NCBI RefSeq assembly: GCF_006442545.2
Contig: NZ_CP083953.1
Coordinates: 310,001-374,000 of the forward strand
Reading direction: 5' to 3'
DNA: 64,000 nt
Source of the DNA: Mesorhizobium sp. B2-1-8
GTDB lineage: Bacteria > Pseudomonadota > Alphaproteobacteria > Rhizobiales > Rhizobiaceae
Shown here: positions 24,815-41,698 of the stretch, piece after piece
Position numbering within the stretch: the stretch's first letter is position 1
Layout of the letters: every line of letters starts with the position of its first letter
Program-made: the position numbers and the translations under genes
Notes under the pieces: model-generated
Database searches by the model: none
What the model saw: only the letters and a program-made list of their open reading frames with translations
What the model was told of the DNA's origin: nothing

Positions 24815-24822
24815 CAAAAACA

Positions 24823-24852
24823 ATGCACTGAAATGCCACTTAATTTCGTTTG
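24823..24852 (+). promoter_or_regulatory. Conserved LysR-regulon box A
   Basis: ATGCACT, 17 bases, CGTTTG, with ACTTAATTT just before CGTTTG and an A-rich run (CGCAAAAACA) before the first element. It matches four other boxes in this window at the same spacing and ends 127 bases before the start of the 24979 gene, which it faces. Confidence 0.65.
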
Positions 24853-24978
24853 ACGGACGTGGCCGTCTCCTCCTTGCTTGGCGGGCACGAATAGGCCGTG
24901 TCAGCGATGAAGATCGGATATTAGGTCTTCCATCTTTTGGCTGTTGCGCGGCTTCTACCAAAACAAGGAGTTACCGTG

Positions 24979-25392
24979 ATGAAAACGCTTGCCTTCGCAG
25001 TTGTCGTGACAATGGCCAGCTCGCTTTGCGCTATCGCGGCGAGCGATGTCGCCAAATCTCCGCCGGCTGCTCCTTACCAACAGGTCAGCAAGCTTGTGAA
25101 ATTGCCAGACTTCCTCCCCGGCATGGGCCAGCTCTTCGTCGATCCGGCGACATTGCCGGCGGGTCCATTCCTTGCCTATGATCACGACGGCAAGCTTGTC
25201 AGCACCATCTACATGCTGCCGATCAAGGATCTCAATCCGGACAAGCGTTTTGACGACCTCGCGGCGCCGGGCGGCAATGTCGACCATGTCGACGTCTACT
25301 ACAATGCCGGGCATCCGGGTGTTCCCGAACCGCATGTCCACGTCGTGTTGTGGCACGTCTCGGCCACCGACGAAGCCCGTGTCGCCAAATGA
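24979..25392 (+). CDS. Exported protein of unknown function
   Basis: A 137-residue protein with a Sec signal peptide (about residues 1-20, LAFAVVVTMASSLCAIAA). The mature part has LVKLPDFLPGMGQLFVDPAT, a middle FLAYDHDGKLVSTIYMLP and a His-rich C-terminus (VDHVDVYYNAGHPGVPEPHV) that could bind metal. I do not recognise the family with confidence. It follows AAGGAG (24965) and its stop overlaps the start of the cupredoxin gene (ATGA), so the two are coupled and probably both act in the periplasm. Confidence 0.7.
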   Translation: MKTLAFAVVVTMASSLCAIAASDVAKSPPAAPYQQVSKLVKLPDFLPGMGQLFVDPATLPAGPFLAYDHDGKLVSTIYMLPIKDLNPDKRFDDLAAPGGNVDHVDVYYNAGHPGVPEPHVHVVLWHVSATDEARVAK

Positions 25393-25913
25393 TGCTCACG
25401 CGTCGTCAGATACTGGGCGGGGGCGGCGCGCTTGCCGCCGCCCTTTCTCGCTCTTCTCCGGCCGCATGGGCCGAGGAGGTGGTGGAAATCGCGATGCGAG
25501 GGCGCGACGACGGCTCACAGGTCTGGTTCGACCCGATCGGCATTCTGATCAAACCAGGACAGACGGTCCGCTGGACCAATCTCAATTCGGGCAATTCGCA
25601 CACTACGACTGCATACAGTCCGACGAACTTCGAGAGACCGCGCCGCATGCCCGGGGCCGCAAAACCGTGGGATTCTGGCTACCTCCTGCCCAACGAGAGT
25701 TTTTCGGCTGCCTTCACTGAGCAGGGGGTCTATGACTACTACTGCGTCCCGCATGAGCACGCCGGCATGGTCGGCCGTATCATCGTCGGCGCGCCCGAAG
25801 CGCATGGCTGGACCGAGCTGGTTGGTGCGAATGGCGATTTGCCGGAGAAGGCCCTCAAAGCATTTCCGAAAGTCGAAAACATCATGATTCGCGGGGTCGT
25901 CCAGCGCGATTAG
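25389..25913 (+). CDS. Tat-exported cupredoxin (plastocyanin-like)
   Basis: A 174-residue blue copper protein. Residues 1-28 form a twin-arginine signal (LTRRQILGGGGALAAALSRS). The copper site is visible: His in NLNSGNSHTTT and the C-terminal Cys-x2-His-x4-Met in YYCVPHEHAGM. A pseudoazurin/plastocyanin-like electron carrier is expected. It is coupled to the preceding exported protein and followed after about 105 bases by a histidine kinase gene. Tat export would fit a protein whose copper or fold is fixed before export. Confidence 0.87.
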   Translation: MMLTRRQILGGGGALAAALSRSSPAAWAEEVVEIAMRGRDDGSQVWFDPIGILIKPGQTVRWTNLNSGNSHTTTAYSPTNFERPRRMPGAAKPWDSGYLLPNESFSAAFTEQGVYDYYCVPHEHAGMVGRIIVGAPEAHGWTELVGANGDLPEKALKAFPKVENIMIRGVVQRD

Positions 25914-26018
25914 GTCATGTCCGCGAAGGCGCCTGGCTGAACAACGAGGATTGGATACCGCGATCAGACCGGGCCACGAGTTCCCTGGCTGTCGTCAGTG
26001 ACCGATGGGGACGTTTTC

Positions 26019-26870
26019 ATGACGGGCGACGTGCATCCATGCGGAAATCAGCCACAATCTCAGACAGGGCGGGACGGGCGCTCTCGGTTGCCGCCCGCTT
26101 CTCTCGATGCCCGGACCGCAATCGAACGACGCGGGCAGGCGACACATCGGCTTGCTGCATTGGGCGAAATGACGGGCGGCATTGTCCATGACTTCAGAAA
26201 CCTGCTGGCGGTCATCGAATCCGGCCTGAGGCTTGCCGAAGCAAGGGCTGACGAGCCAAACCATGTGCTGACCTGCATTGCGATGGCGCGGGAAGGAATC
26301 GCTCGTGGGATCGATTTGACCTCGCAGCTCCTCGCTTTTGCAAAGCACCAGGAACTCGATGCCCATGCCGGCGACCTCAATGAATTCCTCAGGTCCTTCG
26401 AGCCATTGCTGAGATATGGCGCCGGTCCCGATATACGCGTCAGGCTTGAACTTGGTTCCGATATTCCGGACTGCCTGATCGATCCTGCATTGTTCGACAC
26501 GGCGGTGCTTAATCTCGTTGTCAACGCACGGGATGCCATGCCCAAAGGCGGCGAGATCAGGATTGTCACCGAGCGGTTGGTGCAGGAGACCGCCATACCT
26601 GACCACGTGGGGCCGGGAACCTATGTCTGCGTTCGCGTCAAGGACCAAGGGTGCGGTATGACCGAGGAAGTCTTGCGAACGGCGTTCGATCCCTTCTTCA
26701 CGACCAAAGGCGATAAGGGCACGGGCATCGGGCTGTCGCAGGTGCGCGCAGTGATGCGGATGATTGGCGGCCATGTTCGCATTGCGAGCGAGACGGGGAT
26801 TGGGACGACAGTCGATCTGCTGTTCCCGTCAATCCAACCGGAAGTCAAAGCGTCGCCAAGCAATGACTAG
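26019..26870 (+). CDS. Soluble histidine kinase without input domain
   Basis: A 283-residue kinase of the HWE/NtrB-like HisKA class. The phosphorylated histidine is about residue 57 in GEMTGGIVHDFRNLLAVIES; the N box is LNLVVNARDAMPKGGEI, the G1 box KDQGCGMTEEV, the F box FDPFFTTKGDKGTGIGL. The first 40 residues show no sensor or membrane segment, so the signal must come from a partner. No response regulator is adjacent. The start at ATG 26019 is chosen for GGGGA upstream; GTG 25998 is in frame. It overlaps the end of the convergent LysR gene by four bases. Confidence 0.82.
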   Translation: MTGDVHPCGNQPQSQTGRDGRSRLPPASLDARTAIERRGQATHRLAALGEMTGGIVHDFRNLLAVIESGLRLAEARADEPNHVLTCIAMAREGIARGIDLTSQLLAFAKHQELDAHAGDLNEFLRSFEPLLRYGAGPDIRVRLELGSDIPDCLIDPALFDTAVLNLVVNARDAMPKGGEIRIVTERLVQETAIPDHVGPGTYVCVRVKDQGCGMTEEVLRTAFDPFFTTKGDKGTGIGLSQVRAVMRMIGGHVRIASETGIGTTVDLLFPSIQPEVKASPSND

Positions 26871-27718
26871 AGTTTGACGTCGCCACCTGCAACGGCATGC
26901 AATCCCGCCAGGGCAGGACCCACAACGCTCTCGTCCGCACTCGCGGATTGGACCGCGTAAACCGGGTAAGAGAACTGCGGCATTTCAGGCACAAGATGAA
27001 GCCGGCCCGCTTCTATGTGAGGTTGCACTGAACTCATTCTGAAATACCCGGAGCCGCCAGCCGCAAGAACATAGTTCAGCGCGAGCGGACCGAGATCGAA
27101 AGAAAGATCCGGCGCAGCACTCGGGAAATTCATCCCGTGATGAAGTCCAAAATCCGGCCCCCAGTCCATATAGACATAATCGGATTCATCCAGGAGACGC
27201 GATTCGGAATTGGTAGTCACCAGGACGAGTTTCTCTTCCAAAAGCAGATCGATCTTCAAACCCGGTCTGTGCGGGGGCGCGTACATAATGGCCAAGTCGA
27301 CCAGTCCCGACGCGACCTGATTGATCAGATCCTGCGGCACGTCGACGTGTACTCTAAGCGCAATATCCGGAAGCGAATGGCGCATCCATCTGACCCAATC
27401 GAGCAGAAGGGGTTGCGCAAGGCTGACTTCGCTTCCGACCGTCAGAACGGCCCGGCGGCCCGGCGGCACTGCAACCTGATGAAGGGTTCGCTGCCATAGC
27501 TGGACGAACATCGGGGCGTGGCGCAGGAACTGCTCGCCAGCCGGGGTGAGCGAGGCTCCGCCCTTGTGCCGAACGAAAAGAGAACGGCCCAATTGCTGTT
27601 CAAGGTTGCGGATTCGCGCGCTCACGGTCGTCTGAGCGACGTTCAGGCGTTCCGAAGCTCGAATGAAACTCCCTGTAGAAACGATCTCGATGAAAGTGCG
27701 GGCGAGCTCAATGTCCAT
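26867..27718 (-). CDS. LysR-family regulator (paralogue 1)
   Basis: A 283-residue LysR protein. Helix-turn-helix at residues 1-60 (MDIELARTFIEIVSTGSFIR, then LNVAQTTVSARIRNLEQQLG). The ligand domain has LLLDWVRWMRHSLPDIALRV, VDLAIMYAPPHRPGL and YVYMDWGPDFGLHHG, and ends PQFSYPVYAVQSASADE. It is strongly similar along its length to the LysR gene at 37941 (for example QTTVSARIR, PLLLDW, DWGP and YPxYAV). ATG 27718 is preferred over 27754 because the family starts MDI. It is divergent from the dehydrogenase operon, with box B in the gap, so it is the best candidate to bind the box family. Confidence 0.9.
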   Translation of the reverse strand: MDIELARTFIEIVSTGSFIRASERLNVAQTTVSARIRNLEQQLGRSLFVRHKGGASLTPAGEQFLRHAPMFVQLWQRTLHQVAVPPGRRAVLTVGSEVSLAQPLLLDWVRWMRHSLPDIALRVHVDVPQDLINQVASGLVDLAIMYAPPHRPGLKIDLLLEEKLVLVTTNSESRLLDESDYVYMDWGPDFGLHHGMNFPSAAPDLSFDLGPLALNYVLAAGGSGYFRMSSVQPHIEAGRLHLVPEMPQFSYPVYAVQSASADESVVGPALAGLHAVAGGDVKL

Positions 27719-27737
27719 TCTGCATATAGCATAAAAA

Positions 27738-27767
27738 TTGCGCTCAAATGTCAATGAATTTCGTTTG
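27738..27767 (+). promoter_or_regulatory. Conserved LysR-regulon box B
   Basis: TTGCGCT, 17 bases, CGTTTG, preceded by CATAAAAA. It lies in the divergent gap between LysR paralogue 1 (start 27718, minus) and the dehydrogenase operon, whose first ATG (27905) it faces at 138 bases. Confidence 0.7.
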
Positions 27768-27904
27768 CCACATAGTAAGTGCGAACATTAGGCTCCGGTA
27801 ATCCACCAAGCTTAGCGCTGGTTGCTGCACAGCGCGGTTGGAGCGAGCGCAAGCTCTCTCCATCGCTACCCATCGTATTGCCTGCGGCGTCACAAGGAGA
27901 GATC

Positions 27905-28662
27905 ATGTCGACGAGAGAAAAGAGCCATGGCGGTGTGGGGCGTCGCGACTTCCTGAAGCTGTTCGGCGCAGCAGGGGCAGCAGCGGGTACACTGCCGCTT
28001 GGCGGATCCGCATCGGCGGACGAAAACATCGCGCTACCGCCAGTACGAAACATCATCACGTGACTGTCGCCGAACCTCATACTCGAGGGTCCGGCTATGA
28101 ATTCTTCAACGTCGACGAATCCGCCTTCATCGAGGCAGCGGTCGATACGCTCATTCCAAGCGATTCAACAGGCCCTGGTGCCAAGGAACTCGGCGTTGCG
28201 ACCTACGTCGACCGGCAGATGGCCGGCGGATACGGCAAGGGCGACCGTCAGTATCTGGAAGGACCGTTTGGCGAGGGTACGCCCGAGCAGGGCTATCAAT
28301 TGCCGATGACGCCATCGGAAGTGATCCGAGCCGGCATCGCGGATGTCAGGGCCTACGTGCAGAAAAGCCACAAGAGCACCTTCGAGGGCTTGTCGGCAAA
28401 AGATCGTGCCGAGGTCATGGCTGACCTTGAGAGCAACAAGATCGAGCTTCCGACAGTCCCGACGGCAACCTTCTTCGGGCTTTTGCTCCAGCTCACGATC
28501 GAGGGTTATTTCGCGGACCCGATGTATGGCGGAAACAAGGACGCGGCTGCCTGGAAGATGATCGGCTTTCCCGGCGCGGATGCCATGTACGCGGACAAGA
28601 TCGAGCCCTTCCGGAACAAGCCTTACAAGGCTGAACCGAAGGGCATCCAGGACCTCATTTGA
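27905..28662 (+). pseudogene. Gluconate 2-dehydrogenase-type small subunit, frameshifted
   Basis: Frame one from ATG 27905 gives a Tat signal (GVGRRDFLKLFGAAGAAAGT) and stops at 28063. Frame two carries the family body without a good start: SGYEFFNVDESAFIEAAVDT, LIPSDSTGPGAKELGVATYV, DRQMAGGYGKGDRQYLEGPF, then FFGLLLQLTIEGYFADPMYG and AAWKMIGFPGADAMY, ending 28662. This is the gluconate 2-dehydrogenase subunit 3 family, which assists the GMC subunit and brings it to the Tat pathway. A single-base deletion in the linker (about 28020-28065) explains the break. If real, the flavoprotein would have no export signal; if a sequence error, the gene is intact. The next gene shows the same kind of break. 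Confidence 0.75.
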
Positions 28663-28686
28663 TCGGCGGAAGAAGGAGATTTTGAC

Positions 28687-30455
28687 ATGACCACCAAACT
28701 GAACCCGGTAGATGTCCTGATTGTCGGTCTTGGGTGGACAGGCGGCATCATTGCCAAGGAGCTTGCATCCACCAAGCTGAAGATCGTCGCCCTTGAGCGG
28801 GGAGGCCCACGTGACACCAATCCGGACTTCATCGACCCAGAAATCCATGACGAATTGCGTTACGCGGCTCGCTACGATCTCATGCAGAACGTGCGACGGG
28901 AGACCATCACATTCCGCAATGGTGAATCGCAAACGGCGCTGCCTATGCGTCAACTCGGCTCCTTCCTGCCCGGCCAGGGCGTCGGCGGCGCCGGCGTGCA
29001 CTGGAACGGCGTCACATGGCGCTGGCTCGAATGGGATCATCAGGCGCGCACCAGGACCGCCGACAAGTACGGCGAGAAGATCATCCCTTCGGACATGCAC
29101 CTGCAGGACTGGCCGATCACCTACGACGATCTCGAACCCTATTATGACAAGTTCGAAAAAACCTGCGGCACCTCCGGCAAGGCCGGCAATATCAACGGTC
29201 GGAAGATCGATGGTGGCAACATCTTCGAGGGAGCGCGAAAGGAAGAGTACCCTAATCCGCCGATGATTGCCGCGCAGAGCATGATGATGTTCGAGAAGGC
29301 GGCCCGCAATCTGGGCTACCACCCTTTTCCAAATCCGTCGTCAAACGCGTCGCGGGATTACGTCAATCCCGACGCGTGGCCTTCGGCCAGTGCCACTACT
29401 GTGGATTCTGCGAGCGGTTCGGTTGCGAAGCGAATGCCAAGGCCAGCCCGCATTTCACCGTTATCCCGCTGGCGCTGAAGAACCCGAATTTCGAGCTGCG
29501 CACCAACTCGATCGTACTGAAGGTCAATCTCGACTCGACCCGCAAGCGGGCGGTCAGCGTCACCTATCTCGACGCACGCGGGCGTGAATTCGAACAGCCT
29601 GCCGACCTCATCATCCTGTCGGCCTATGCGCTCGGCAACGTCAATCTGTTGCTGCAGTCCGGCATCGGCGTGCCCTACGATCCGGCAACGGGGAAGGGCG
29701 TGGTCGGCCGCAACTATGCCTATCAGTGCGGTGGCGGGGCCACCGCCTTCTTCGACAAGAAGACCATCCTGAACCGCTACATGGGCGCCGGTGCGCTCGG
29801 CACCTGCATGGATGATTTCAACGGCGACAACTACGATTTCGTGAAGGCAGGCTATATCGGCGGCGGCGGCATCAGCTGCAGCAACTCGGGCGCCCGGCCT
29901 ATCCAGTCGCATCCAACTCCGCACGGCACGCCGCGCTGGGGCTCCGACTGGAAGCAGGCAGTGGTCGACAATTATGACCGCGCGGCGAGCGTTGGCAATC
30001 AAGGGGCCGTCATGGCCTACCGACAGAACTACTTGAGCCTTGATCCGACCTACACTGACGTCTTTGGACGTCCGCTGATGAGGATGACGTTCGACTTCCA
30101 GGACAACGAGGTAAAGCAGATGAACGGTCAGGCCGACATCTGCGTGGAGATCGCCAAGGAAATGGGTGCGACCAAGGTCGATCGGAGCATCCCGCCTGTG
30201 CCCTATTCCATCGTGCCTTATCAGAGCACGCACAACACAGGCGGGGCAGTCTTCGGAGCAGACCCGAGCACCAGCGTTCTGAACAAGTATCTTCAGGTCT
30301 GGGATGTCCCGAACGTATTCGTCACCGGCGCTTGCGTGTTTCCGCAAAACGCAGGGAAGAATCCGACCGGGCCGGTAGGTGCTCTTGCCTACTGGGCAGT
30401 GGACGCGATCAAGAACCAGTATCTGAAGAGCCCAGGCCGATTGGTTCCCTCCTGA
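28687..30455 (+). pseudogene. GMC-family FAD dehydrogenase large subunit, frameshifted
   Basis: Frame one (ATG 28687) has the FAD fold VDVLIVGLGWTGGIIAKELA, then LPGQGVGGAGVHWNGVTWRW and WPITYDDLEPYYDKFEKTCG, and stops at 29478 after losing sense near 29370. Frame two resumes with AFGQCHYCGFCERFGCEANA (the Cys cluster of gluconate dehydrogenase-like flavoproteins) and runs to 30455 with STHNTGGAVFGADPSTS and the C-terminal PQNAGKNPTGPVGALAYWAV. The break lies at GACGCGTGG (29371-29379), where GACGGCGTGG would restore D-G-V-A; one G seems to be missing. It is the second such flavoprotein in the window, most like gluconate/keto-gluconate dehydrogenases of this order. It has a good ribosome binding site (GAAGGAG). 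Confidence 0.8.
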
Positions 30456-30461
30456 GGCAAC

Positions 30462-30494
30462 GCCTGCCGGATCCGCGGTTCGGGTCCGGCAGGC
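30462..30494 (+). terminator. Stem-loop between the flavoprotein and cytochrome genes
   Basis: A 10-base perfect stem (GCCTGCCGGA / TCCGGCAGGC) with a 13-base loop, directly after the flavoprotein stop and about 80 bases before the cytochrome start, followed by TGGGTGTGTTT. It could partly terminate or separate expression of the cytochrome. Confidence 0.55.
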
Positions 30495-30571
30495 TGGGTG
30501 TGTTTCGAACCTCATATTGCCGGGAGCCGGCTCGACCGGAACCAACCATTAACTCATTGAAAGCAGCACAC

Positions 30572-30979
30572 ATGAAATCGATCATGCTTGGATTGGCGAC
30601 CGCGGTTCTCACCGCAGTCGGTTCGGCCCATGCGCAGGACGCATCTCCTGGCAATGCTGAGGCCGGCGCCGTCGTCTTCAAGAGGTGCATGGCCTGCCAC
30701 CAGGTCGGCCCTGATGCAAAGAACGGAGTAGGGCCTGTATTAAATGGCGTCGTTGGCCGTGCGGCAGGCACCTACCCCGATTACATTTATTCCGCGGCGA
30801 ACAAGGATTCAGGGCTGACCTGGGATGAACCGACGCTGACGACTTACCTGCGCGCGCCGCGCAAGCTGGTGCCAGGCACAAAGATGACATTCGCCGGCCT
30901 CAGCAAGGACCAGGAGATCGCCGATGTGATCACCTATCTCAAACAGTTCAACGCTCAAGGACAGAAGGCCGCCCCCTGA
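30572..30979 (+). CDS. Class I cytochrome c, soluble
   Basis: A 135-residue cytochrome. A signal peptide spans residues 1-21 (GLATAVLTAVGSAHA). The haem site is CMACH in FKRCMACHQVGPDAKNGVGP, and the axial Met lies in VPGTKMTFAGLSKDQE. It looks like the mitochondrial/c2-type cytochromes of alphaproteobacteria and is the natural electron acceptor of the dehydrogenase encoded upstream, or a donor to a terminal oxidase such as the one whose subunit I is at 35520-37115. Unlike the first dehydrogenase cluster (5821-7212) this is a monohaem soluble protein, so the two complexes differ in their electron outlet. Confidence 0.9.
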   Translation: MKSIMLGLATAVLTAVGSAHAQDASPGNAEAGAVVFKRCMACHQVGPDAKNGVGPVLNGVVGRAAGTYPDYIYSAANKDSGLTWDEPTLTTYLRAPRKLVPGTKMTFAGLSKDQEIADVITYLKQFNAQGQKAAP

Positions 30980-31019
30980 AACAGGGGACGATCTGTTCCG
31001 GCTTGCGAAGCGCTACCTT

Positions 31020-31229
31020 ATGAAGTTCCTCCTGCATCAGGGTCTGGGGTATTCCACGGTTCATCAGATTGGTGATTACCTGCGCAGCCATGGAACCGGT
31101 CATCACTGGATCGCGCGATATCGCGGCGACATCTTCGTCATCGTATCCGATCAAGCCGACGAGATAATCCTTCGAAAGGAGTTCTCCGGGCTTCTCGATG
31201 CCGTCAACGACGCGGAGACGGACGGATGA
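31020..31229 (+). CDS. Hypothetical small protein
   Basis: A 69-residue protein (MKFLLHQGLGYSTVHQIGDY, then HHWIARYRGDIFVIVSDQAD). Its stop overlaps the start of the DUF488 gene (ATGA), which supports expression. I see no known domain. The reading frame upstream of the ATG is also protein-like (DDLFRLAKRYL), but no start codon is available there. Confidence 0.5.
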   Translation: MKFLLHQGLGYSTVHQIGDYLRSHGTGHHWIARYRGDIFVIVSDQADEIILRKEFSGLLDAVNDAETDG

Positions 31230-31597
31230 GCGGAAAAGTCTTCAACGAGAGAGTGAAATTGAAGCGGGCATATGAGAGCCCTGTTGCCGACGATGGCACG
31301 CGGTTGCTGGTTGACCGGCTTTGGCCGCGCGGGGTCAAGAAGACCGAGGCCGCCATCGACTATTGGATGAAAGAACTCGCGCCAAGCACCGAGCTTCGGA
31401 AATGGTTCGGACACGATCCAGCCCGCTGGGAGGAGTTCCGTCGGCGATATGCGGCGGAAATCCACGCGCACCGCGACGAGGTCGACCGGCTGCGCGACCT
31501 GATACGGCAGGGCGCCGTCACGCTCGTCTACTCGGCTCACGACGAGGCCCACAATGATGCCGTCGTCCTGAGAGAGATTTTGCTGGGACATCGATAG
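31226..31597 (+). CDS. DUF488 family protein, YeaO-like
   Basis: A 123-residue protein with the YeaO-type DUF488 pattern: RLLVDRLWPRGVKKTEAAID, WMKELAPSTELRKWFGHDPA and VTLVYSAHDEAHNDAVVLRE. The family role is not well known to me. It is coupled by a four-base overlap to the small protein upstream and is followed by the transaldolase-like gene. A different DUF488 protein is at 38856-39401. Confidence 0.82.
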   Translation: MSGKVFNERVKLKRAYESPVADDGTRLLVDRLWPRGVKKTEAAIDYWMKELAPSTELRKWFGHDPARWEEFRRRYAAEIHAHRDEVDRLRDLIRQGAVTLVYSAHDEAHNDAVVLREILLGHR

Positions 31598-31739
31598 AGA
31601 CGCCGCGCGGCGCTGCCATTGACCTTCAAAAGCATTGGGCGTGCGATCACGACAGCGAGACCGAAATCACCTTATGGAACCAAACTGGAGAAGCCTCATC
31701 AAAGCATCGATGGACACGCTCACGTCGAGGAGAAACACC

Positions 31740-32639: not shown

Positions 32640-34175
32640 ATGGCTGAAGGCCATACCGTACTAGTGGGACCGAATCTGGTCCAGGGCATCGCGTTGTCAG
32701 ACCTTCCCGATGGCGGAAAGCTTGTCGGCCATTGCGGCGACGAACAGGTGCTGTTGGTGCGCCGAGGGACAGAGGTCTTCGCCACCGCGGCGACATGCAC
32801 ACATTACAGCGGGCCGCTCGTCGAAGGTCTTCTGGTGGAGGATACTGTCCGGTGTCCCTGGCATCACGCATGCTTCGATTTGCGCACAGGCGAGGCCTTG
32901 CACGCCCCTGCCTTCAATCCACTCGCTTGCTGGTCGGTGGAACAGCGCGACGGCCGGATATTCGTGGGCGAGAAGCGCAAGCGGACAGCACCAAAGCCGC
33001 GCGACGGAAGCTCTGGCCAGATTCCTGGGAAAATCGTCATTGTCGGCGGCGGGGCGGCTGGTTTCGCCGCGGCCGAAACACTGCGGCGCGAGCAGTATCT
33101 GGGCAGCATCGTCATGATCAGCGATGACCAAGCGCCGCCTGTCGACCGACCCAACCTCTCCAAGGACTACCTCGCCGGAAAGGCACCGGAGGATTGGATG
33201 CCGCTCCGGGGGGAGAAGTTCTATTCAAAAAACAACATCGGCCTGCGTCTCGATACGAAGGCCGTTGATATCGACCTGCATTCCCGGGAGGTCGTCCTCG
33301 CGGGTGAAGGCAGGATCCCATACGATAGGCTGCTGCTCGCCACGGGGGCAGAACCAGTTTGTCTTACTATCCCCGGCGCCGACCACCCACACGTTCACAC
33401 CCTCCGCTCGTTCGCAGACTGCAAGGCGATCATCGAGCGAGCCACGACTGCGCAGCGCGCCATTGTGCTTGGCGCCAGTTTCATTGGCTTGGAAGTTGCC
33501 GCGGCCCTGCGCGCGCGCGGCATCGACGTTCACGTCGTGGCACCAGATAAAAAGCCTATGGAGCGTGTCCTGGGTTCACAGATGGGCGACTTCATCCGGG
33601 CCCTCCATGAGGAGAACGGCGTTGTTTTCCACCTTGAGGACGTAGCGAGCCGCATCAACGGCAGCAGGGTGAAGCTCAGAAGTGGCGGCACGTTGGCGGC
33701 GGACTTCCTTGTGGCCGGCATCGGCGTGCGGCCGCGGACCGGGCTTGCCGAGACGGCTGGGCTAAGCCTTGATCGCGGTGTCGTGGTGGACGCCTTTCTG
33801 GAGACGAGCACGCCCGGCATATTTGCGGCCGGCGACATTGCACGGTGGCCCGATCCCCACACTGGTGAAAACATTCGGGTCGAGCATTGGGTCGTTGCAG
33901 AGAGACAGGGGCGAACTGCGGCACTCAACATGCTCGGCCATCGCGAGAAATTCGCTGCCGTGCCGTTCTTCTGGAGCCAGCACTACGACGTTCCCATCAA
34001 CTATGTCGGCCATGCCGAGCGATGGGACGAGATCGCAGTCGAGGGTGACATTGCCGCCAAGGATTGCCTGATCCGCTTCAAACGCGAAGGGCGCACGCTA
34101 GCTGTCGCTTCGATCTTCCGCGACATCGAGAGCCTAGAAGCCGAGGTGGAAATGGAGCGCCAAATAGCGACCTAG
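32640..34175 (+). CDS. Rieske ferredoxin fused to FAD-dependent reductase
   Basis: A 511-residue fusion. Residues 1-115 form a Rieske domain with ligands Cys53/His55 (ATCTHYSG) and Cys72/His75 (RCPWHHACFD). From about residue 131 a ferredoxin-reductase flavoprotein follows: IVIVGGGAAGFAAAETLRRE, RPNLSKDYLAGK, an NADH fold (AIVLGASFIGLEVAAALRAR) and the late FAD motif GIFAAGDIARWPD. This layout is shared with AIFM3-type proteins and some dioxygenase reductases. It moves electrons from NAD(P)H through FAD to the 2Fe-2S centre; the acceptor is unknown and no oxygenase is adjacent. It starts at ATG 32640 after AGGAGAAG, behind box C. Confidence 0.9.
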   Translation: MAEGHTVLVGPNLVQGIALSDLPDGGKLVGHCGDEQVLLVRRGTEVFATAATCTHYSGPLVEGLLVEDTVRCPWHHACFDLRTGEALHAPAFNPLACWSVEQRDGRIFVGEKRKRTAPKPRDGSSGQIPGKIVIVGGGAAGFAAAETLRREQYLGSIVMISDDQAPPVDRPNLSKDYLAGKAPEDWMPLRGEKFYSKNNIGLRLDTKAVDIDLHSREVVLAGEGRIPYDRLLLATGAEPVCLTIPGADHPHVHTLRSFADCKAIIERATTAQRAIVLGASFIGLEVAAALRARGIDVHVVAPDKKPMERVLGSQMGDFIRALHEENGVVFHLEDVASRINGSRVKLRSGGTLAADFLVAGIGVRPRTGLAETAGLSLDRGVVVDAFLETSTPGIFAAGDIARWPDPHTGENIRVEHWVVAERQGRTAALNMLGHREKFAAVPFFWSQHYDVPINYVGHAERWDEIAVEGDIAAKDCLIRFKREGRTLAVASIFRDIESLEAEVEMERQIAT

Positions 34176-34254: not shown

Positions 34255-34551
34255 ATGTCCAAAACGCAACAGGAACTTGGCAATGCCAATGGTTTGCGCA
34301 CGGTTGCGCCCGCTCAGCATTATTCAAAGATCGTCGAGTTCGCCAAGGAGGTGGCTAGGGAAGCGTCCGATGCGATACCGACCTCGGTTGAAATCTTCTC
34401 GGACGGCGGCCACTGGTACTGCCGGGTCCGTCGAGGCAATCAAAAAACCCGGCCAATGGGCCCCTATACCAAGCAACAGGCTGAGCGGATCCAGGAAACT
34501 CGAAGCATGTTGATCGCCAAAAGGGGTACCGCTCGGATTATGTTCGATTAG
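34255..34551 (+). CDS. Hypothetical protein, 98 aa
   Basis: A short soluble protein (QHYSKIVEFAKEVAREASDA, FSDGGHWYCRVRRGNQKTRP, MGPYTKQQAERIQETRSMLI). I do not recognise it. It follows the Rieske-reductase gene by 79 bases with GAAAGGAG upstream, and is likely in the same transcript. The central GHWYCRVRRG suggests a small beta-sheet. Confidence 0.55.
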   Translation: MSKTQQELGNANGLRTVAPAQHYSKIVEFAKEVAREASDAIPTSVEIFSDGGHWYCRVRRGNQKTRPMGPYTKQQAERIQETRSMLIAKRGTARIMFD

Positions 34552-34838
34552 GGTGGGACCTTCGTGATCACGCCGACCGGCGCACTTCTCATTCAATGAT
34601 CGTTTGTCATTAGGTTTTTGGAACCTGCGCGGCAGACCTTCCGGCGTTCGAGGGTTGCCGCATTGCGCTGCTTGAAAATGACCGACTGAACCGAGTCATG
34701 TCGAATTGGTTGAAACACCAGTAGCGAATGCGCATCCTCAAAATTGAACAAATCTGCCCATGCAGTCCAGCGCTCTGGGGTCGACCCCCACCGACGGTGA
34801 CCAGGAGGTCAGGCAGGCATCGGAATGACACGCGCTTG

Positions 34839-35459: not shown

Positions 35460-35519
35460 GACCTTCTCCCGATAAGTATCGAAGCGACGGAAGGTGTCGA
35501 TTTGGAACAGGGTGCGAAG

Positions 35520-37115
35520 TCAGAGAATGCGCGGCAGCTTTTCCCACTGATGGAAGGGCGGCGGCGACGGAAGTTGCCACTCGAGCGTGGTCGCGCCTTC
35601 GCCCCATGGATTGGCTCCTGCCTGGCGTCTGCGGCTGAAAGCTTCCGCCACCGCGATGAAGAAGACGACAAGCCCGGCCGTTGAAATGTAGGACCCGATC
35701 GAGGACACGAAATTCCAGCCGGCAAAAGCGTCGGGGTAGTCGGCATAGCGTCGGGGCATGCCGGCCATGCCGAGGAAATGCTGCGGGAAGAAGACGAGAT
35801 TAACGCCGACGAACATCAGGCAGAAGTGCAGCTTTCCCAAAACTTCGCTGTACATGTAGCCTGTCATCTTCGGGAACCAGTAGTAGAAGCCCGCGAAGAT
35901 CGCGAAGACCGCCCCCAAAGACAACACATAGTGGAAGTGGGCGATGACAAAGTAAGTGTCGTGATACACGCGGTCGATACCGGGGTTCGCAACCATTATG
36001 CCAGTGACGCCACCAATGGTGAACAGCAGGACGAAACCGAGAGCCCACAGCATCGGCGTCTTGAACTCTATCGAGCCCCCCCACATGGTCGCCAACCATG
36101 AAAACACCTTCACGCCGGTCGGAACGGCGATGACCATCGAAGCGAAGGCGAAGTAGCGCTGCGTGTCGACTGAAAGGCCGGTCGTATACATATGATGTGC
36201 CCAGACGACAAAGCCGATCGCGCCGATTGCCACCATCGCATAGGCCATGCCGACGTAACCGAAGATCGGTTTCTTGGCGAAGGTCGAGATGACGTGGCTG
36301 ATGATGCCGAAGCCAGGGAGAATCATGATGTAGACTTCGGGATGGCCGAAGAACCAGAACAGGTGCTGGTAGAGTATCGGGTCGCCGCCGCTATCCGGAA
36401 CAAAGAAGGTCGTGCCAAAATTGCGGTCCGTGAGCAGCATCGTGATCGCGCCGGCAAGCACCGGAAGCGACATGAGCAGCATGAAGGCGGTGACCAGCAT
36501 CGACCAGGCGAACAGAGGCATCTTGTGCATCGTCATTCCCGGCGCGCGCATGTTGAAGATGGTCGTGATGAAGTTGATCGCGCCGAGGATCGATGACGCT
36601 CCTGCGAGGTGGATCGAAAGGATGACGAGATCGACGGCAGGGCCAGGCTGGCCGGAGGTCGAAAGCGGCGGATAAAGCGTCCAGCCGCCACCATGGCCGA
36701 GCGTGCCGGGCGCTCCCGGCACGAACATCGAAGTGACGAAAAGGCTAAACGCGGCCACGAGCAGCCAGAACGAGATGTTGTTCATGCGCGGGAAAGCCAT
36801 GTCGGGCGCACCGATCATGATCGGCACCATCCAGTTGCCGAAGCCACCGATCAGCGCCGGCATGAGGACGAAAAAGATCATGACCAGACCATGGGCGCTG
36901 ACGACGACGTTGTAGACGCTCGGATCGCCGAATATCTGCAAACCTGGTTCCTGCAACTCCATGCGGATCAAAACAGAAAGCGCCGTGCCGAAGACTCCCG
37001 CCATGATCGAGAACAGCAGGTAAAGTGTCCCGATATCCTTGTGGTTGGTGGAAAACAGCCACCTGACGAGAAAACGGGGCTTGTGATCATCCAAGGTCGT
37101 GGCCGGATTAGACAT
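35520..37115 (-). CDS. ctaD: Cytochrome c oxidase subunit I
   Basis: A 531-residue haem-copper oxidase subunit I with about twelve membrane spans. Hallmarks are [17 protein letters not shown], the haem a ligand in [12 protein letters not shown], the CuB region [20 protein letters not shown] with the cross-linked His-Tyr, [10 protein letters not shown], and the late His pair [12 protein letters not shown]. The D and K channel residues appear present (aa3, type A). Subunits II, III and the assembly factors are absent from the neighbourhood; instead it lies between a folate gene and a Tim44-like gene. It may be a second copy that shares subunits made elsewhere. ATG 37115 follows AGGAAG. Confidence 0.93.
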
Positions 37116-37146
37116 GATGTGCTTCCTGCTCTTCACCTGCGCTCAG

Positions 37147-37809
37147 TCATTCATCCGTGACGATCACATCCATCGGAATGTCGTGTGGCTGCGGATAGAT
37201 GGTTTGAATTCTGCTGCCGGTGTAACCGACGCCGACGACGAAAGGACGCTTCGGCGCGGCGGCCAAGGTCCGGTCGAAGAAGCCGCCGCCATAACCCAGG
37301 CGATAGTTGGCCTGGTCGAAACCGACAACGGGCGCGACGACCACATCCGGTTGGACCGATGGCCCGTGTGAGGGGACAAGAATATTCCATATGCCGCGTT
37401 CCAGAGGGTCTCCCGGTCCCCAGATGCGAAACTCCAGCGGCCAGCCTTTTTTGATGACGACCGGCAACGCGACCCGTCCGCCGCGCTCGATCACCCGTAT
37501 CGCCCAGTTGCGAAGGTCCGGTTCGCCTCGAAAAGGCCAGTAGCCGCTGACGATGCGACCGCTCACCCGGCCGACAACTAGGTCGAGAGCCGAAGCGATG
37601 CGCAAAGACCTCGCAGCGCGTTCCTCGGCGTCGACGGCCAGACGCTCGTCGATCAGGCGCTTGCGCTCCGCCTTGCGCCATCGACAGACACCGGTCCATG
37701 CGTCTTGCGCAATCGCTTCGGCGCCATATCCTGGGACGAGTTCGTGCATGAAGCATGGCGGAGAGGCGTACTCTCGCGTTTCCAGGGGACCATCCTCCTG
37801 ATCGGACAT
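37147..37809 (-). CDS. 5-formyltetrahydrofolate cyclo-ligase family protein
   Basis: A 220-residue protein. An N-terminal extension of about 45 residues (with ETREYASPPCFMHEL) precedes the cyclo-ligase fold: WRKAERKRLIDERLAVDAEE, VSGRIVSGYWPFRGEPDLRN, WGPGDPLERGIWNILVP, and the signature PVVGFDQANYRLGYGGGFFD. The enzyme converts 5-formyl-THF to 5,10-methenyl-THF with ATP. It starts with ATG 37809 behind GGAG, is first in the set with oxidase subunit I and the Tim44-like gene, and is faced by box E 76 bases upstream. Confidence 0.85.
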   Translation of the reverse strand: MSDQEDGPLETREYASPPCFMHELVPGYGAEAIAQDAWTGVCRWRKAERKRLIDERLAVDAEERAARSLRIASALDLVVGRVSGRIVSGYWPFRGEPDLRNWAIRVIERGGRVALPVVIKKGWPLEFRIWGPGDPLERGIWNILVPSHGPSVQPDVVVAPVVGFDQANYRLGYGGGFFDRTLAAAPKRPFVVGVGYTGSRIQTIYPQPHDIPMDVIVTDE

Positions 37810-37884
37810 TACGCACTCCGTTCCATAGACCGCCGCGGCCGGATATCTCTGCTGAACGAGGTTGCGCTGCGTAAAACAGGAAGG

Positions 37885-37914
37885 CAAACGGAATTAAATG
37901 CTGTATTAGTGCAA
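37885..37914 (-). promoter_or_regulatory. Conserved LysR-regulon box E (minus strand)
   Basis: Read on the minus strand: TTGCACT, 17 bases, CGTTTG, with CATTTAATTC before CGTTTG. It lies in the divergent gap between the cyclo-ligase gene (start 37809, minus), which it faces, and LysR paralogue 2 (start 37941, plus). This mirrors the geometry of box B. Confidence 0.7.
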
Positions 37915-37940
37915 CATTATTGCATTGATCCGGGACCAGC

Positions 37941-38786
37941 ATGGACATTGACCGCGCTCGCACTTTTTTGGAGATCGTTCATTCGGGCAGCTTTCTGAAA
38001 GCCGCAGACCGACTCCACGTGACCCAGACGACAGTGAGCGCGCGGATACGCACGCTGGAAGACGAACTCGGACGTCAGCTCTTTATCCGCAATCGCAATG
38101 GAGCGCAGCTGACGCAGGCAGGCAGAGAGTTCGAGCGGTTCGCCCAGTCATTCGTGCAAATCTGGGAGCGGGCACGCCACCAGCTCGCCATCCCATCGGG
38201 AAGGACAAGCGTCGTTGCCCTGGGCGGAGAGCTCAGTCTGTGGAACCCCCTGCTGCTCGACTGGCTGGTCTGGATGAAGAACGCCAAGCCGGAAATCGCT
38301 ATCCAAGCCCAGGTGGGTGTGCCGGACCAGCTCCTCGATCAGCTCAGGACCGGCGTTCTGGACATCGCGGTGCTCTATGCGCCGAAGCTGCTGCCAGGTT
38401 TCAGGGTGGAGCTTCTTGTCGAGGAGCAGCTCGTCCTGGTTCGGACCACGGACAGAGACGGGGAACTGGGTGCCTCCAGGGACTACGTCTATGTAGATTG
38501 GGGGCCGCTGTTTGCCGCGCAGCATGGTGCCAGTTCCTCGGTCTTCGGCGAGCCGGGATTGATGGTCGGCCTTGGCCCGCTCGGGCTGAGCTATATCCTG
38601 CGTGCCGGTGGCATGGGCTATTTCCGCAGGGGGGCGGCGGCTCCCCATATCGAGGCGGGGCAGCTGGAGGCCGTGAAGGGTGCGCCGGAATTCACCTACC
38701 CGGCCTATGCAGTCTATCCGGAAGCAAGCGCGGCGCGAGCCGACGTGCAGGAGGCGCTACGCGGCCTGAAACAGGTGGTGAAATGA
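37941..38786 (+). CDS. LysR-family regulator (paralogue 2)
   Basis: A 281-residue LysR protein. Helix-turn-helix: MDIDRARTFLEIVHSGSFLK, then LHVTQTTVSARIRTLEDELG. The effector domain has NPLLLDWLVWMKNAKPEIAI, VLDIAVLYAPKLLPGFRVEL, YVYVDWGPLFAAQHG and EFTYPAYAVYPEAS. It aligns throughout with the LysR at 26867-27718. It is divergent from the cyclo-ligase/oxidase operon with box E between them, and is the likely regulator of that operon and possibly of the other box-bearing genes. Confidence 0.9.
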   Translation: MDIDRARTFLEIVHSGSFLKAADRLHVTQTTVSARIRTLEDELGRQLFIRNRNGAQLTQAGREFERFAQSFVQIWERARHQLAIPSGRTSVVALGGELSLWNPLLLDWLVWMKNAKPEIAIQAQVGVPDQLLDQLRTGVLDIAVLYAPKLLPGFRVELLVEEQLVLVRTTDRDGELGASRDYVYVDWGPLFAAQHGASSSVFGEPGLMVGLGPLGLSYILRAGGMGYFRRGAAAPHIEAGQLEAVKGAPEFTYPAYAVYPEASAARADVQEALRGLKQVVK

Positions 38787-38855
38787 CCGCGCTCTTTGTT
38801 CCAAATCACTGATCATGCCGCCGGAAATAGATCCGTCGCCATGGATTAATTGAAC

Positions 38856-39401
38856 ATGCCTTATCCATTCCACACCATCGGTCACTCGGCCCGGTCGATT
38901 GCCGAATTCGTAGCTCTGCTGCGGGTCGCCGATATAAGCCTGGTGGTCGACATAAGAACCATCCGGCGCTCGCGTGCCAACCCGCAGTTCAACGGCGAGG
39001 TGCTGGCGGAAAAGCTGGCAGCATACGGGATTGGATATGAATGCATTGCTGAGCTTGGCGGCCTGCGCGGCAAGGCGCATGGTATCCCACCGGCGCTTAA
39101 CGCATTCTGGATCAACCAGAGTTTTCACAACTACGCCGACTACGCGCTATCAGTGGAGTTTCTTGGCGGCTTGGACCGGCTTGTGTACTTCGGCAGGCAG
39201 CGGCGATGCGCCGTCATGTGCTCTGAAACGCTCTGGTGGCGCTGTCACAGAAGGATCGTCGCGGACTATCTGATCAGCCGCGGCGAGTCCGTTTTTCATC
39301 TGATGGGTCATGACAAGGTCGAGCCAGCGAAACTTACCGACGGGGCGCGGGTAAGAGCTGACGGAACGCTTGTCTACCCGCCTTCGCAACCTCCGGGATA
39401 G
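38856..39401 (+). CDS. DUF488 family protein
   Basis: A 181-residue DUF488 protein of the longer type: FHTIGHSARSIAEFVALLRV, VVDIRTIRRSRANPQFN, CIAELGGLRGKAHG, then CAVMCSETLWWRCHRRIVAD, a Cys/His pattern typical of the family, and VFHLMGHDK. The family is widespread and uncharacterised. I chose ATG 38856; a TTG at 38850 is in frame. It follows LysR paralogue 2 and converges with a GreA/Rnk-like gene. Confidence 0.82.
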   Translation: MPYPFHTIGHSARSIAEFVALLRVADISLVVDIRTIRRSRANPQFNGEVLAEKLAAYGIGYECIAELGGLRGKAHGIPPALNAFWINQSFHNYADYALSVEFLGGLDRLVYFGRQRRCAVMCSETLWWRCHRRIVADYLISRGESVFHLMGHDKVEPAKLTDGARVRADGTLVYPPSQPPG

Positions 39402-39409
39402 TCGAGCCT

Positions 39410-39964
39410 TCAGGCGGCCGACGGACCTGGGTCGTCGAATCCGACGTCCGAAACCGCCAAGCGTTTGTTCTCCGCTTTGTCTTGCGGTTCATCGGAACGA
39501 TGGACGACGCGCAGAACCGGTCTCCCCGAGCCCGGCGCGGCACCCCCCGCCAGCTTCAATTTCTCGCGGGTTGCGTCTTCGGGCTGATAGACCACTTCAT
39601 GAACAGTCAGCGTTTCTAGGCCGCCGTCTGCGGTCGGAATGGATATGGACTGACCTTCGGCCAGACCAAGCAGCGCCAGGCCGCGCGGACTGGTGATAGG
39701 CAAAAGCATGCCAACCAGGCCGCGCATCTCGTCATGTGAGACGATGCGCGTTTCGGCAGGGCCGTCGTTTACCCGATAAGCCACGCGGCTGCTGAGGGTC
39801 ACGACGGTTGCCGGAATATCATCCCGAAACACTACAACCGCGCTCGAAATCTTCCGTTTAAGGATAGTCAAGAAGGCTTCCCCTCGGGCAGGATGACGAT
39901 CCCGCATCACTTCAAGAATTGTGTAGTCCTTTGTAGTCAGTTGGCAGCTGTCGATAGTGGGCAT
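39410..39964 (-). CDS. Rnk/GreA C-terminal domain protein (first)
   Basis: A 184-residue protein of the regulator of nucleoside diphosphate kinase (Rnk) type. An N-terminal coiled segment (TTKDYTILEVMRDRHPARGE) precedes the GreA/B FKBP-like C-terminal domain (VAYRVNDGPAETRIVSHDEM, MLLPITSPRGLALLGLAEGQ, LETLTVHEVVYQPEDA). Such proteins bind RNA polymerase in the secondary channel. ATG 39964 follows GGAGACGCACC. A related protein is encoded next upstream (40127-40603). Confidence 0.82.
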   Translation of the reverse strand: MPTIDSCQLTTKDYTILEVMRDRHPARGEAFLTILKRKISSAVVVFRDDIPATVVTLSSRVAYRVNDGPAETRIVSHDEMRGLVGMLLPITSPRGLALLGLAEGQSISIPTADGGLETLTVHEVVYQPEDATREKLKLAGGAAPGSGRPVLRVVHRSDEPQDKAENKRLAVSDVGFDDPGPSAA

Positions 39965-40027
39965 GGTGCGTCTCCAGCCGGTCCGCGCAAGGGGGCCAGC
40001 GTCAAGCAAATGATCGGGTGTGGAAAG

Positions 40028-40071
40028 CTGACCCCCTGTGCCGGACCACGAGAGACCGGCGCAGGGGTCAG
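40028..40071. terminator. Long stem-loop between the two Rnk-like genes
   Basis: CTGACCCCCTGTGCCGG pairs with CCGGCGCAGGGGTCAG around an 11-base loop, with one bulge and one mismatch. It follows the second Rnk-like gene (ends 40127) and precedes the first (starts 39964), both on the minus strand, so it probably separates two transcripts. No long T run is present. Confidence 0.5.
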
Positions 40072-40126
40072 ACACCCGCGATCAGGCTGCCTGCGTGATT
40101 GAGGAGACGGATGGAAACGCCCATGG

Positions 40127-40603
40127 CTAGACGTCCGCCGCAATCGTCGAAGACGCTGGTGCGCGCCAATCAGCCGTACCGGTTTCCGGAGCGGGTTGGT
40201 CCACTGCAAGTACCGACAGTTCGTGCCGGCGCCCATCGCGCGCGATCCACATGATCGACTGTCCAGCCGAGAGGCCGATCAGAGCCGTGCCAATCGGCGT
40301 GAGGATTGAGACCTTGCCCTCGGAGATATCCGCATCGCCAGGAAAAACCAGCGTAACTGTCTTTGCGTCGCCGGTATCAGGCTTGAACGTCACGGTAGAA
40401 CCCATACGGACAGTGCCGGCGGAGACCCAACCATCGGCGACGACGCGCGCGCGCTCAAGTTCCGCGAGCAGTTCGTCGATAGCTTCCGGATTTCGTGCAG
40501 CAACGGTGTTTGCAAGCGCCGATAAACGTGCATGGTCCGACTTTGAGATACGGATGTTCGGCTTGCGCCGGGTTTTCGTATTGTGTTGCATTTGAATACT
40601 CAT
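40127..40603 (-). CDS. Rnk/GreA C-terminal domain protein (second)
   Basis: A 158-residue Rnk-type protein. N-terminal part: NIRISKSDHARLSALANTVA and AIDELLAELERARVV. C-terminal GreA/B domain: MGSTVTFKPDTGDAKTVTLV, then ILTPIGTALIGLSAGQSIMW and RHELSVLAVDQP. It is similar in layout to the neighbouring 39410 protein but with a shorter tail. ATG 40603 is chosen; ATG 40591 is possible. Confidence 0.82.
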   Translation of the reverse strand: MSIQMQHNTKTRRKPNIRISKSDHARLSALANTVAARNPEAIDELLAELERARVVADGWVSAGTVRMGSTVTFKPDTGDAKTVTLVFPGDADISEGKVSILTPIGTALIGLSAGQSIMWIARDGRRHELSVLAVDQPAPETGTADWRAPASSTIAADV

Positions 40604-40733
40604 GCTCTTGCCGGCACCAGCCGCCCACCAACGGTGTCGGAGCTGAGTCGGTCCGTGAAAAATCCTGCTGACAACGCCGAGATCCCAGAGGCTTGCGGTC
40701 CTGCGGGACCATCCCATTTGGGCTAACGCACCG

Positions 40734-40768
40734 CCCCCTCGGCTCAGGGCGTATGGCTGAGCCGGGGG
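40734..40768. other. Stem-loop upstream of the second Rnk-like gene
   Basis: CCCCCTCGGCTCA pairs with TGAGCCGGGGG (one bulged T) around an 11-base loop. It lies about 130 bases upstream of the 40603 start and could be a leader structure or a terminator of something upstream. No T run. Confidence 0.35.
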
Positions 40769-40909
40769 CTAGATTCCCGCTATGGGGCAAACCCGGAAAA
40801 GAAAATCGTGACGAATTTTGACTGCGGCGTTCATAAGGCCATAGATGGTGAAGCAATCCGGGAAGTCAAGTCAGCCACCTCGTCGCAGCTGGCAGGAATC
40901 AATGCAGAC

Positions 40910-41116
40910 TTAGTTAGAGCGAGCACTAAGCAACGTTCTTATCACGAGCTCTCGTCCGGTCCTGTTTATCCCGGTTCCGCTCGGTCTTTCTTGCGCCAGT
41001 CCGAGGAAGACAAGACGTTCGGCCAAGGCTTTCGATAAAAATGGATAAGGCCCGCGGTTCATGCGCTTGAGCGCCGTTCGCTCCTCCTCGGTGAGATCGT
41101 CCCAGATAACGGTCAT
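40910..41116 (-). CDS. Hypothetical protein, 68 aa
   Basis: A small basic protein (VIWDDLTEEERTALKRMNRG, PYPFLSKALAERLVFLGLAQ, then INRTGRELVIRTLLSA) that reads like a minimal winged helix. The ATG at 41116 follows GGGAGG at 8 bases. No known family to me. Confidence 0.55.
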   Translation of the reverse strand: MTVIWDDLTEEERTALKRMNRGPYPFLSKALAERLVFLGLAQERPSGTGINRTGRELVIRTLLSARSN

Positions 41117-41212
41117 GAGGGCCACCTCCCTTGTTTGCGTTGTCTAGCCGATGCAGCTTCTGGATTGTCCAGCGATGGACCGCGACCGCGAGCCCCGAAG
41201 AAGATGTGGGGC

Positions 41213-41512
41213 CTATGGAACGGCATCTATTCCAACAATGCCGCCTTCATTCTCCAGGACGCCGATCCGCTTGACTTCCGAGCGGTTGAGTTTCAGGCGA
41301 ACGCCGATGCCGCCGCCATTCTCGGCGATGAAAACGGCGCCGGCGTTTTCAAGCGCGGTTTGCAGCGTGTCACAGACATCCTGGCTGGGAAGGCTGATCC
41401 GGCGTTCGAATTCCTCGACAATCAACGTGTCTACGCCTGAATTGACGGCGAGCTTTCCCCGGGTCCATTCGACCAGCGCGCGAGCGGCGCGGCATTGAGC
41501 ACCAGTGATCAT
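41213..41512 (-). CDS. XRE-like helix-turn-helix protein
   Basis: A 99-residue protein with the start MITGAQCRAARALVEWTRGK typical of a common rhizobial XRE-type family, followed by a degenerate second helix (LAVNSGVDTLIVEEFERRIS), then LQTALENAGAVFIAENGGG and GVRLKLNRSEV. The usual C-terminal part after that is shortened to LENEGGIVGIDAVP. It could bind DNA as a dimer. It lies just before box D but is transcribed away from it. Confidence 0.7.
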   Translation of the reverse strand: MITGAQCRAARALVEWTRGKLAVNSGVDTLIVEEFERRISLPSQDVCDTLQTALENAGAVFIAENGGGIGVRLKLNRSEVKRIGVLENEGGIVGIDAVP

Positions 41513-41668
41513 GTAAAATCTCCTGCTGGACTGCTTTCCTGGACGAAATCGCGCTGCCGACGGCCAAGACGTTTCGGTCGGGCGGGTTCATCCGGCAAAA
41601 AATGCATATCGAACCCGAAAAGGAAAGGGCCGCGTTAACTGCCAGATCAAATTTGTGGTGCAAAAAAA

Positions 41669-41698
41669 TTAAGCTAAAGCGGCAATAAATTTCGTTTG
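41669..41698 (+). promoter_or_regulatory. Conserved LysR-regulon box D
   Basis: TTAAGCT, 17 bases, CGTTTG, with AATAAATTT before CGTTTG and GCAAAAAAA before the first element. The first half is the most divergent of the five boxes, but spacing and second half are exact. It faces the operon that starts near 41824. Confidence 0.6.

Follow-up and report, generated by a model that had tools for sequence, protein, structure and literature searches.

Five copies of one operator mark a probable LysR-type regulon in Mesorhizobium sp. B2-1-8

Genes and operators of the locus

The 64,000-nucleotide stretch of Mesorhizobium sp. B2-1-8 analysed here (contig NZ_CP083953.1, positions 310,001 to 374,000; hereafter the window, in whose coordinates positions are given) contains five copies of a bipartite box in front of genes that mostly encode redox and respiratory proteins. 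The original prediction, made from the letters of the window, had located five boxes in which a TTGCACT-like part is separated from CGTTTG by exactly 17 bases, and we find the coordinates, the strands and the spacer as it gave them. Two of the boxes lie, as it had also noted, in divergent gaps beside LysR genes; their distances to the LysR start codons are 19 and 26 bases. The five boxes are very probably the operators of one LysR-type regulon with two paralogs, here called LysR1 and LysR2, and sequence comparison supports the earlier proposal of a single shared operator tied to both. The full sites and the genes around them are as follows.

24807..24852, plus strand: operator 1 (full 46-column site), before the DUF5602/TTHB210-like and cupredoxin genes
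24979..25392, plus: TTHB210-like (DUF5602) protein, Pfam PF18197; the S. meliloti gene in the same place is annotated DUF5602
25389..25913, plus: cupredoxin, PF00127
26867..27718, minus: LysR1, PF00126 and PF03466, 52% identical to LysR2
27722..27767, plus: operator 2, between LysR1 and the gluconate-dehydrogenase-like operon
27905..28662, plus: gluconate 2-dehydrogenase subunit 3, reading frame broken; PF13618 on frame 27838-28662, extent from relatives' frames
28687..30455, plus: GMC oxidoreductase in two frames; PF05199 and PF00732 on the second piece
30573..30979, plus: cytochrome c, PF00034 on frame 30332-30979; start set by eye
31226..31597, plus: DUF488 protein, PF04343
31725..32396, plus: fructose-6-phosphate aldolase/transaldolase, PF00923
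32419..32464, plus: operator 3, before the Rieske-FAD reductase gene
32640..34175, plus: FAD reductase with N-terminal Rieske domain, PF00355 and PF07992
34839..35459, minus: Tim44-like protein, PF04280
35520..37136, minus: cytochrome c oxidase subunit I (CtaD type), PF00115; TIGR02891 above cut-off
37147..37809, minus: 5-formyltetrahydrofolate cyclo-ligase, PF01812; TIGR02727 above cut-off; start inferred from relatives
37885..37930, minus: operator 4, between LysR2 and the cyclo-ligase-ctaD genes
37941..38786, plus: LysR2, PF00126 and PF03466
41653..41698, plus: operator 5, before the CBS-BON / globin-like / FdxA / hydantoinase-like operon
42336..45840, plus: CBS-BON protein, 134-aa protein, FdxA and hydantoinase/oxoprolinase-like protein

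Measured on the sequence, the distance from CGTTTG to the next start codon is 126 bases (start 24979), 137 (27905), 175 (32640), 75 (37809, the start inferred from relatives) and 53 (41752, an uncertain start), and on the other side the full sites of operators 2 and 4 end 3 and 10 bases from the start codons of LysR1 and LysR2.

The 13 fixed bases of the original prediction are weak when used alone: the window holds 14 matches at up to three mismatches against 15.0 expected, and the box at 41669 itself has three mismatches to them, while the whole genome at up to one mismatch yields six matches, four of which are known boxes. With the window count at three mismatches within chance, the 13-base pattern was given up as sole evidence and replaced by a spacer-containing pattern and a profile. 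The spacer-containing pattern, WWTGCRCTNAANNNNCANTNAATTTCGTTTG, matches the 6,870,590-base genome five times with up to three mismatches, each time at a known box, and its reversed control never does; as the pattern was derived from the same five boxes, its informative part is the absence of further sites. The same five boxes were returned by a genome search with a 46-column profile built from 69 sites (E 4.9e-10 to 7.8e-8; 150 of 470 first-look candidates scored), the runners-up being the opposite strand of box 4, that is, the dyad of that box (E 0.2), and a match at E 1.5. Because both searches find only these five sites, the box is not scattered at random over the genome; as far as the profile sees, the set is complete and confined to 17 kb, on one plasmid contig of 494,461 bases (C2).

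Architecture of the operator

The box as originally described is real and truncated: the conserved element extends a further ~10-15 bases to the left, where the left arm of a dyad had been missed. The full site spans ~40-46 bp: a GCA-N7-TGC dyad comes first, and two helical turns further along lies a half that ends in AATTTCGTTTG; the majority consensus of the 69 sites, with the unconserved left end removed, is GCAAAAATATTGCACTnAAnnGnCAATTAATTTCGTTTG. The dyad is centred on column 14, where palindromicity reaches 0.62 against a mean of 0.29 over centres. Its arms are nearly constant, with CA in 69/69 sites, TG in 66/69 and both GCA and TGC complete in 50/69. The CA of the left arm, at columns 9-10 in all 69 sites, is repeated 22 bp on (columns 31-32) in 51 of them and followed by AATTTCGTTTG, and CGTTTG is exact in 59/69. 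The CGTTTG end is probably the promoter-side half.

LysR loci of other genomes, with and without a divergent target, provide a natural experiment that separates the recognition half of a LysR operator from its promoter-side half. Where a known divergent target lies within 600 bp (59 loci), the left half is kept in 58/59 and the right half likewise in 58/59. Of the 19 loci with no known divergent target, 13 retain the dyad half and 5 the CGTTTG half, or 6 counting L180, where placing the site by its left half misplaced it and a complete site (35.6) stands before an acetate-CoA ligase gene; at L188 the right half is shifted by one base. Fisher's test gives 1.6e-10 for 5/19, an optimistic value given that many of the 59 loci are close relatives. 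This pattern of loss is as expected if the dyad holds LysR in place beside the gene that encodes it and the second half works at the target promoter, and retention of the dyad with loss of the promoter-side half is, as far as sequence can tell, LysR-type logic.

A variant operator ending in GCAATATCATTCRTTTG is present at L132 (15327), L167 (8959) and L183 (9745) and forms a second sub-class of the same operator. The genes behind the variants encode proteins whose starts resemble the CysJ-type flavoprotein of L154, the one such protein that was family-scanned.

Conservation and co-occurrence with LysR

Within the genus, the spacer-containing pattern has a match in 34 of 146 genomes and its control in 0/146. 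Most of these matches fall into five orthologous sub-types, which stand before the same five target sets: the DUF5602-cupredoxin genes, the gluconate-dehydrogenase-like operon, the Rieske reductase gene, the cyclo-ligase-ctaD genes and the CBS-globin-FdxA operon. The box is thus conserved in orthologous promoters across the genus. Taking 17, 11, 15, 16 and 15 sites per set, hand-picked at orthologous places from 111 matrix matches, we compared the conservation of the 46-bp block with that of the 65 bases upstream and obtained 0.79/0.32, 0.91/0.84, 0.79/0.60, 0.87/0.75 and 0.83/0.62, the block being the more conserved in every set. In the two sets beside LysR, the 65-base stretch reaches into the LysR coding sequence and is well conserved in its own right (0.84, 0.75). 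Each set also shows conservation (0.62-0.72) in a block 16-30 bases to the right of CGTTTG, where the -10 region may lie.

Box and LysR occur together. A LysR relative was counted in the genus at an identity of at least 50%, a rule under which 34 of the 55 genomes with a match at E <= 1e-60 were counted; the other 21 have only a 37-38% relative, and no box was found in them. Of the 146 genomes, 32 have both, 2 have the box only, 2 have LysR only and 110 have neither (agreement 142/146). The family sample, 394 genomes from 109 genera drawn from the larger family and judged at E <= 1e-75 for LysR and E <= 1e-3 for the box, gives 41 with both, 3 with the box only, 6 with LysR only and 344 with neither (agreement 385/394); one of the two family-wide searches ran with stricter filters and lost weak matches. 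Several apparent exceptions dissolve on reading. An adjacent LysR is present after all in G261 (48%, below threshold) and in G460 (LysR in pieces), and weaker boxes are present after all in G277 (L161, L170), G369, G401, G455, G012 and G031, the boxes of the last scoring only 12 and 17.

Distant loci and other targets

Of 80 LysR loci, the best 80 of 130, 78 were read; L155 and L166, in which LysR is incomplete, were left out. An operator scoring above 14 lies within 260 bp upstream of LysR in 69 of the 78, and in 64 of those 69 it is at most 20 bp from the start; the median gap is 10 bp. The scoring matrices were trained on some of the sites that they then scanned. The loci come from Mesorhizobium, Hoeflea, Aminobacter, Shinella, Nitratireductor, Chelativorans, Rhizobium, Bosea and Neoroseomonas, among other genera. 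Over the 2,366,345 bases fetched, the matrix gives 348 matches above 14 and none on the same bases reversed, a count in which loci overlap and training sites are included.

Sites are also found on plasmids: three on Sinorhizobium meliloti pB, two on S. medicae pSymA and one on a Variovorax plasmid, where the site lies between LysR and an acetate-CoA ligase gene. This last locus (L267; Variovorax sp. RA8 plasmid 2, from a betaproteobacterium) encodes a 59% LysR relative with an operator and the divergent acetate-CoA ligase gene, and an IS1071-family transposase gene lies ~4 kb away; horizontal transfer is a likely origin of the operator-LysR pair in Variovorax. A plasmid of Mesorhizobium sp. 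131-2-1 (G119; L080-L082, L265) carries three copies of the LysR subfamily, as well as additional boxes that correspond to none in the window.

The original prediction described a compact regulon of about 17 kb made up largely of redox genes. Compactness holds in this genome; elsewhere, sites also lie on contigs other than that of LysR. In G519, boxes stand before genes for COX1 and cystathionine gamma-synthase on such contigs, in G361 the box before a cystathionine gamma-synthase gene is on a 4.0 Mb contig and LysR on one of 734 kb, and in G380 a box before the cyclo-ligase-COX1 genes is again on another contig than LysR; the synthases of G519 and G361 were named from their protein starts, which match the type scanned in L129. 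Redox and respiratory genes do dominate in the window, and 'redox regulon' is nevertheless too narrow a name because genes of sulfur, folate and acetate metabolism stand behind boxes elsewhere. Above the NCBIfam cut-offs these include CysJ (TIGR01931, L154), cystathionine gamma-synthase (TIGR02080, L129) and acetate-CoA ligase (TIGR02188, L254), and Pfam names further XdhC-like, nitronate-monooxygenase-like and DUF2478 genes. For this survey, the gene behind a box was the longest frame starting within 450 bp; of 35 boxes, seven representatives and one more were family-scanned, and several had no clear next gene (for instance L195, L197 and L191). The pairing of box and regulator recurs in many other bacteria, with a changing set of genes that belong mostly to redox reactions, respiration and sulfur metabolism.

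Discussion

Both LysR1 and LysR2 have the helix-turn-helix and effector domains of LysR (PF00126, PF03466), and the core of the recognition helix, QTTVSARIR, is identical in the two and invariant in 14 aligned relatives except for V32, which is nearly so. They are sister paralogs and probably bind the same operators. We infer that LysR would bind as a tetramer and activate rather than repress its targets, in classical LysR-type control by one or two paralogs that probably combines activation with autoregulation. The GCA-N7-TGC dyad would be the recognition half, and the second half, CAnTnAATTTCGTTTG, which lies 22 bp (two helical turns) on towards the target, probably overlaps or abuts the target promoter. 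From the position of an operator directly upstream of each LysR start codon (3 and 10 bp), autoregulation would be expected. A signal would change how the bound tetramer sits on the second half and thereby activate the cupredoxin, sugar-dehydrogenase, Rieske reductase, folate cyclo-ligase/oxidase-subunit-I and CBS-globin-ferredoxin operons. We looked for a function common to the targets and found no one pathway that covers them all. As a guess, the list would suit a stress harmful to respiration or to sulfur and iron-sulfur enzymes; nitrosative or sulfur-redox stress is no more than a guess too.

Several observations weigh against one LysR-type regulon or soften the evidence for it. T-N11-A is not conserved in the operator, its best column pair occurring in 23/69 sites, and the dyad has G-N11-C spacing instead; T-N11-A is frequent in sites of LysR-type transcriptional regulators (LTTRs) and not universal. 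A promoter element in the block to the right of CGTTTG could explain part of the conservation. The p-values of co-occurrence, 1.7e-27 in the genus and 1.5e-45 in the family, are not to be taken at face value: they are optimistic because the genomes are related by descent, and the co-occurrence is partly linkage because box and LysR are often neighbours. Nine of the 78 LysR loci score under the matrix threshold. In G176, which has the LysR, the 10 kb read showed no box, G461, which also has a LysR, stays among the exceptions, and no site was found in the 12.8 kb read of Paracoccus aminovorans plasmid IV, which encodes a 53% LysR relative. Conversely, no LysR match at E <= 1e-60 accompanies the box of G068, G286 has a box beside only a 27% LysR-like match, and the single box match of G030 has three mismatches. 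The box of G068 (L111, 7833-7878) is well conserved and shares bases with the end of a reading frame labelled amidase-like by eye; this operator is probably a relic.

The two paralogs could have split, LysR1 serving operators 1-2 and LysR2 operators 3-5 in two regulons with similar operators, and the stretches read agree with this in that genomes with LysR1 only retain operators 1-2 (G034, G087) and genomes with LysR2 only retain operators 3-5 (G109, G039), each of the five operator sets, moreover, showing a sub-consensus of its own. However, operator 3 is present with LysR1 where no LysR2 was detected (G144) as well as with LysR2 where no LysR1 was detected (G109, G039), operator 4 is intact where LysR2 is fragmented (G047, G070), and the recognition-helix cores do not differ. 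We therefore regard a strict split as doubtful; because operator 3 occurs with either paralog and operator 4 outlasts a broken LysR2, operators shared by both appear likelier.

Explanations that dispense with LysR as the binding protein fare worse. The CGTT end, the 17-base spacing and the gene-ward orientation of the boxes resemble a promoter of an extracytoplasmic function (ECF) sigma factor, for which the EcfG consensus is GGAAC-N17-CGTT, and the conserved block downstream of CGTTTG would suit such a promoter too; the LysR genes would then be mere members of the regulon of an alternative sigma factor, for example one of the general-stress ECF type. That is very improbable, as no box comes within one mismatch of the consensus (the window has 11 matches against 14.4 expected), and a 46-bp dyad site tied to one LysR subfamily across genera, with a dyad that outlives the CGTTTG half, is unlike a sigma promoter. 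It is also quite improbable that some other regulator binds the box and counts the LysR genes among its targets, since on distant plasmids the site remains paired with LysR and the other genes differ, with a cyclo-ligase gene on S. medicae pSymA and an acetate-CoA ligase gene in Variovorax. Five similar sites so close together might also be copies of a short repeat or of a duplicated promoter segment without common regulation; yet across genomes each copy is preserved at its particular position, and the likeness stops at the operator. Duplication of a repeat is rejected because the flanks of the five sets, compared by eye, differ, and we give it hardly any weight. Sites of the FNR/FixK type (TTGAY-N4-RTCAA) were rejected as well, the window having three matches at up to one mismatch (1318, 49156 and 58863), none near the boxes, against 4.8 expected. 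No nod gene is among the window proteins that were family-scanned; the nod box consensus itself was not scanned.

The arrangement that one LysR-type regulon implies is familiar. In the LTTR model, control runs through a recognition binding site and an activation binding site (RBS/ABS; PMC11739112). The likeness to LTTR systems lies in the divergent LysR gene, the dyad beside the regulator gene and the second half placed towards the target promoter, two helical turns from the dyad; the differences lie in the dyad, here GCA-N7-TGC (G-N11-C) and not T-N11-A, in the presence of two paralogs and in the spread of the operator over several operons. HdfR (NF002946) is the best NCBIfam match of both LysR1 and LysR2, over nearly their full length, and a solved chain named HdfR (PDB 6wn5) is among the seven sequence matches of LysR2. 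The scores of 125 and 117 bits are short of the cut-off of 240, so neither protein was accepted as HdfR, and, in contrast to HdfR, no flagellar gene is among the targets scanned. RhizoBindingSites provides motifs predicted by automatic footprinting in nine symbiotic Rhizobiales, Mesorhizobium japonicum MAFF303099 among them (PMC7674921), and could contain a matrix for some of these genes. This operator with this gene set was not found in the open-licence literature searched. LysR regulons as a kind are well known.

The result gives a regulator, an operator model and a target list for poorly studied accessory respiration and redox genes of soil- and plant-associated bacteria, and the profile can be used to trace one LysR regulon as its targets change between genomes. 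A wider reading, which we offer tentatively, is that of a portable cassette: one LysR subfamily and its 46-bp operator, found on alphaproteobacterial plasmids and chromosomes and on a Variovorax plasmid, might recruit spare copies of core aerobic functions under one signal, perhaps respiratory, nitrosative or sulfur-redox stress. The functions recruited would include oxidase subunit I, the folate cyclo-ligase, the sulfite reductase flavoprotein, cystathionine gamma-synthase, acetate-CoA ligase, ferredoxin and globin.

Further features of the target genes and their neighbours

Two genes behind operator 2 are interrupted. The subunit-3 gene, whose product has a Tat-like signal (RRDFLK, labelled by eye), runs on in frame in 11/12 relatives compared, with no readout for L086. 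The two GMC oxidoreductase frames (28687-29478 and 29376-30455) both align to one relative; the gene is a single coding sequence in Mesorhizobium sp. 131-2-1 but in pieces in G129. The split genes (27905-30455) may reflect decay or an assembly error, and the operators are unaffected. In the operon behind operator 5, the 134-aa protein has no Pfam or NCBIfam match, and a relative is annotated as a group III truncated hemoglobin.

Upstream of operator 1, an Rrf2 regulator gene and a globin-like gene (22551-23538, labels by eye) form a pair that stays near this operator in several relatives, and genes of the same names lie near the Variovorax LysR. On the far side of operator 5, the window at 45800-48800 matches the sigma factor, folE (GTP cyclohydrolase I), DUF4142 and cupredoxin genes of a relative, so that a folate gene, folE, adjoins a regulon that contains a folate cyclo-ligase gene.

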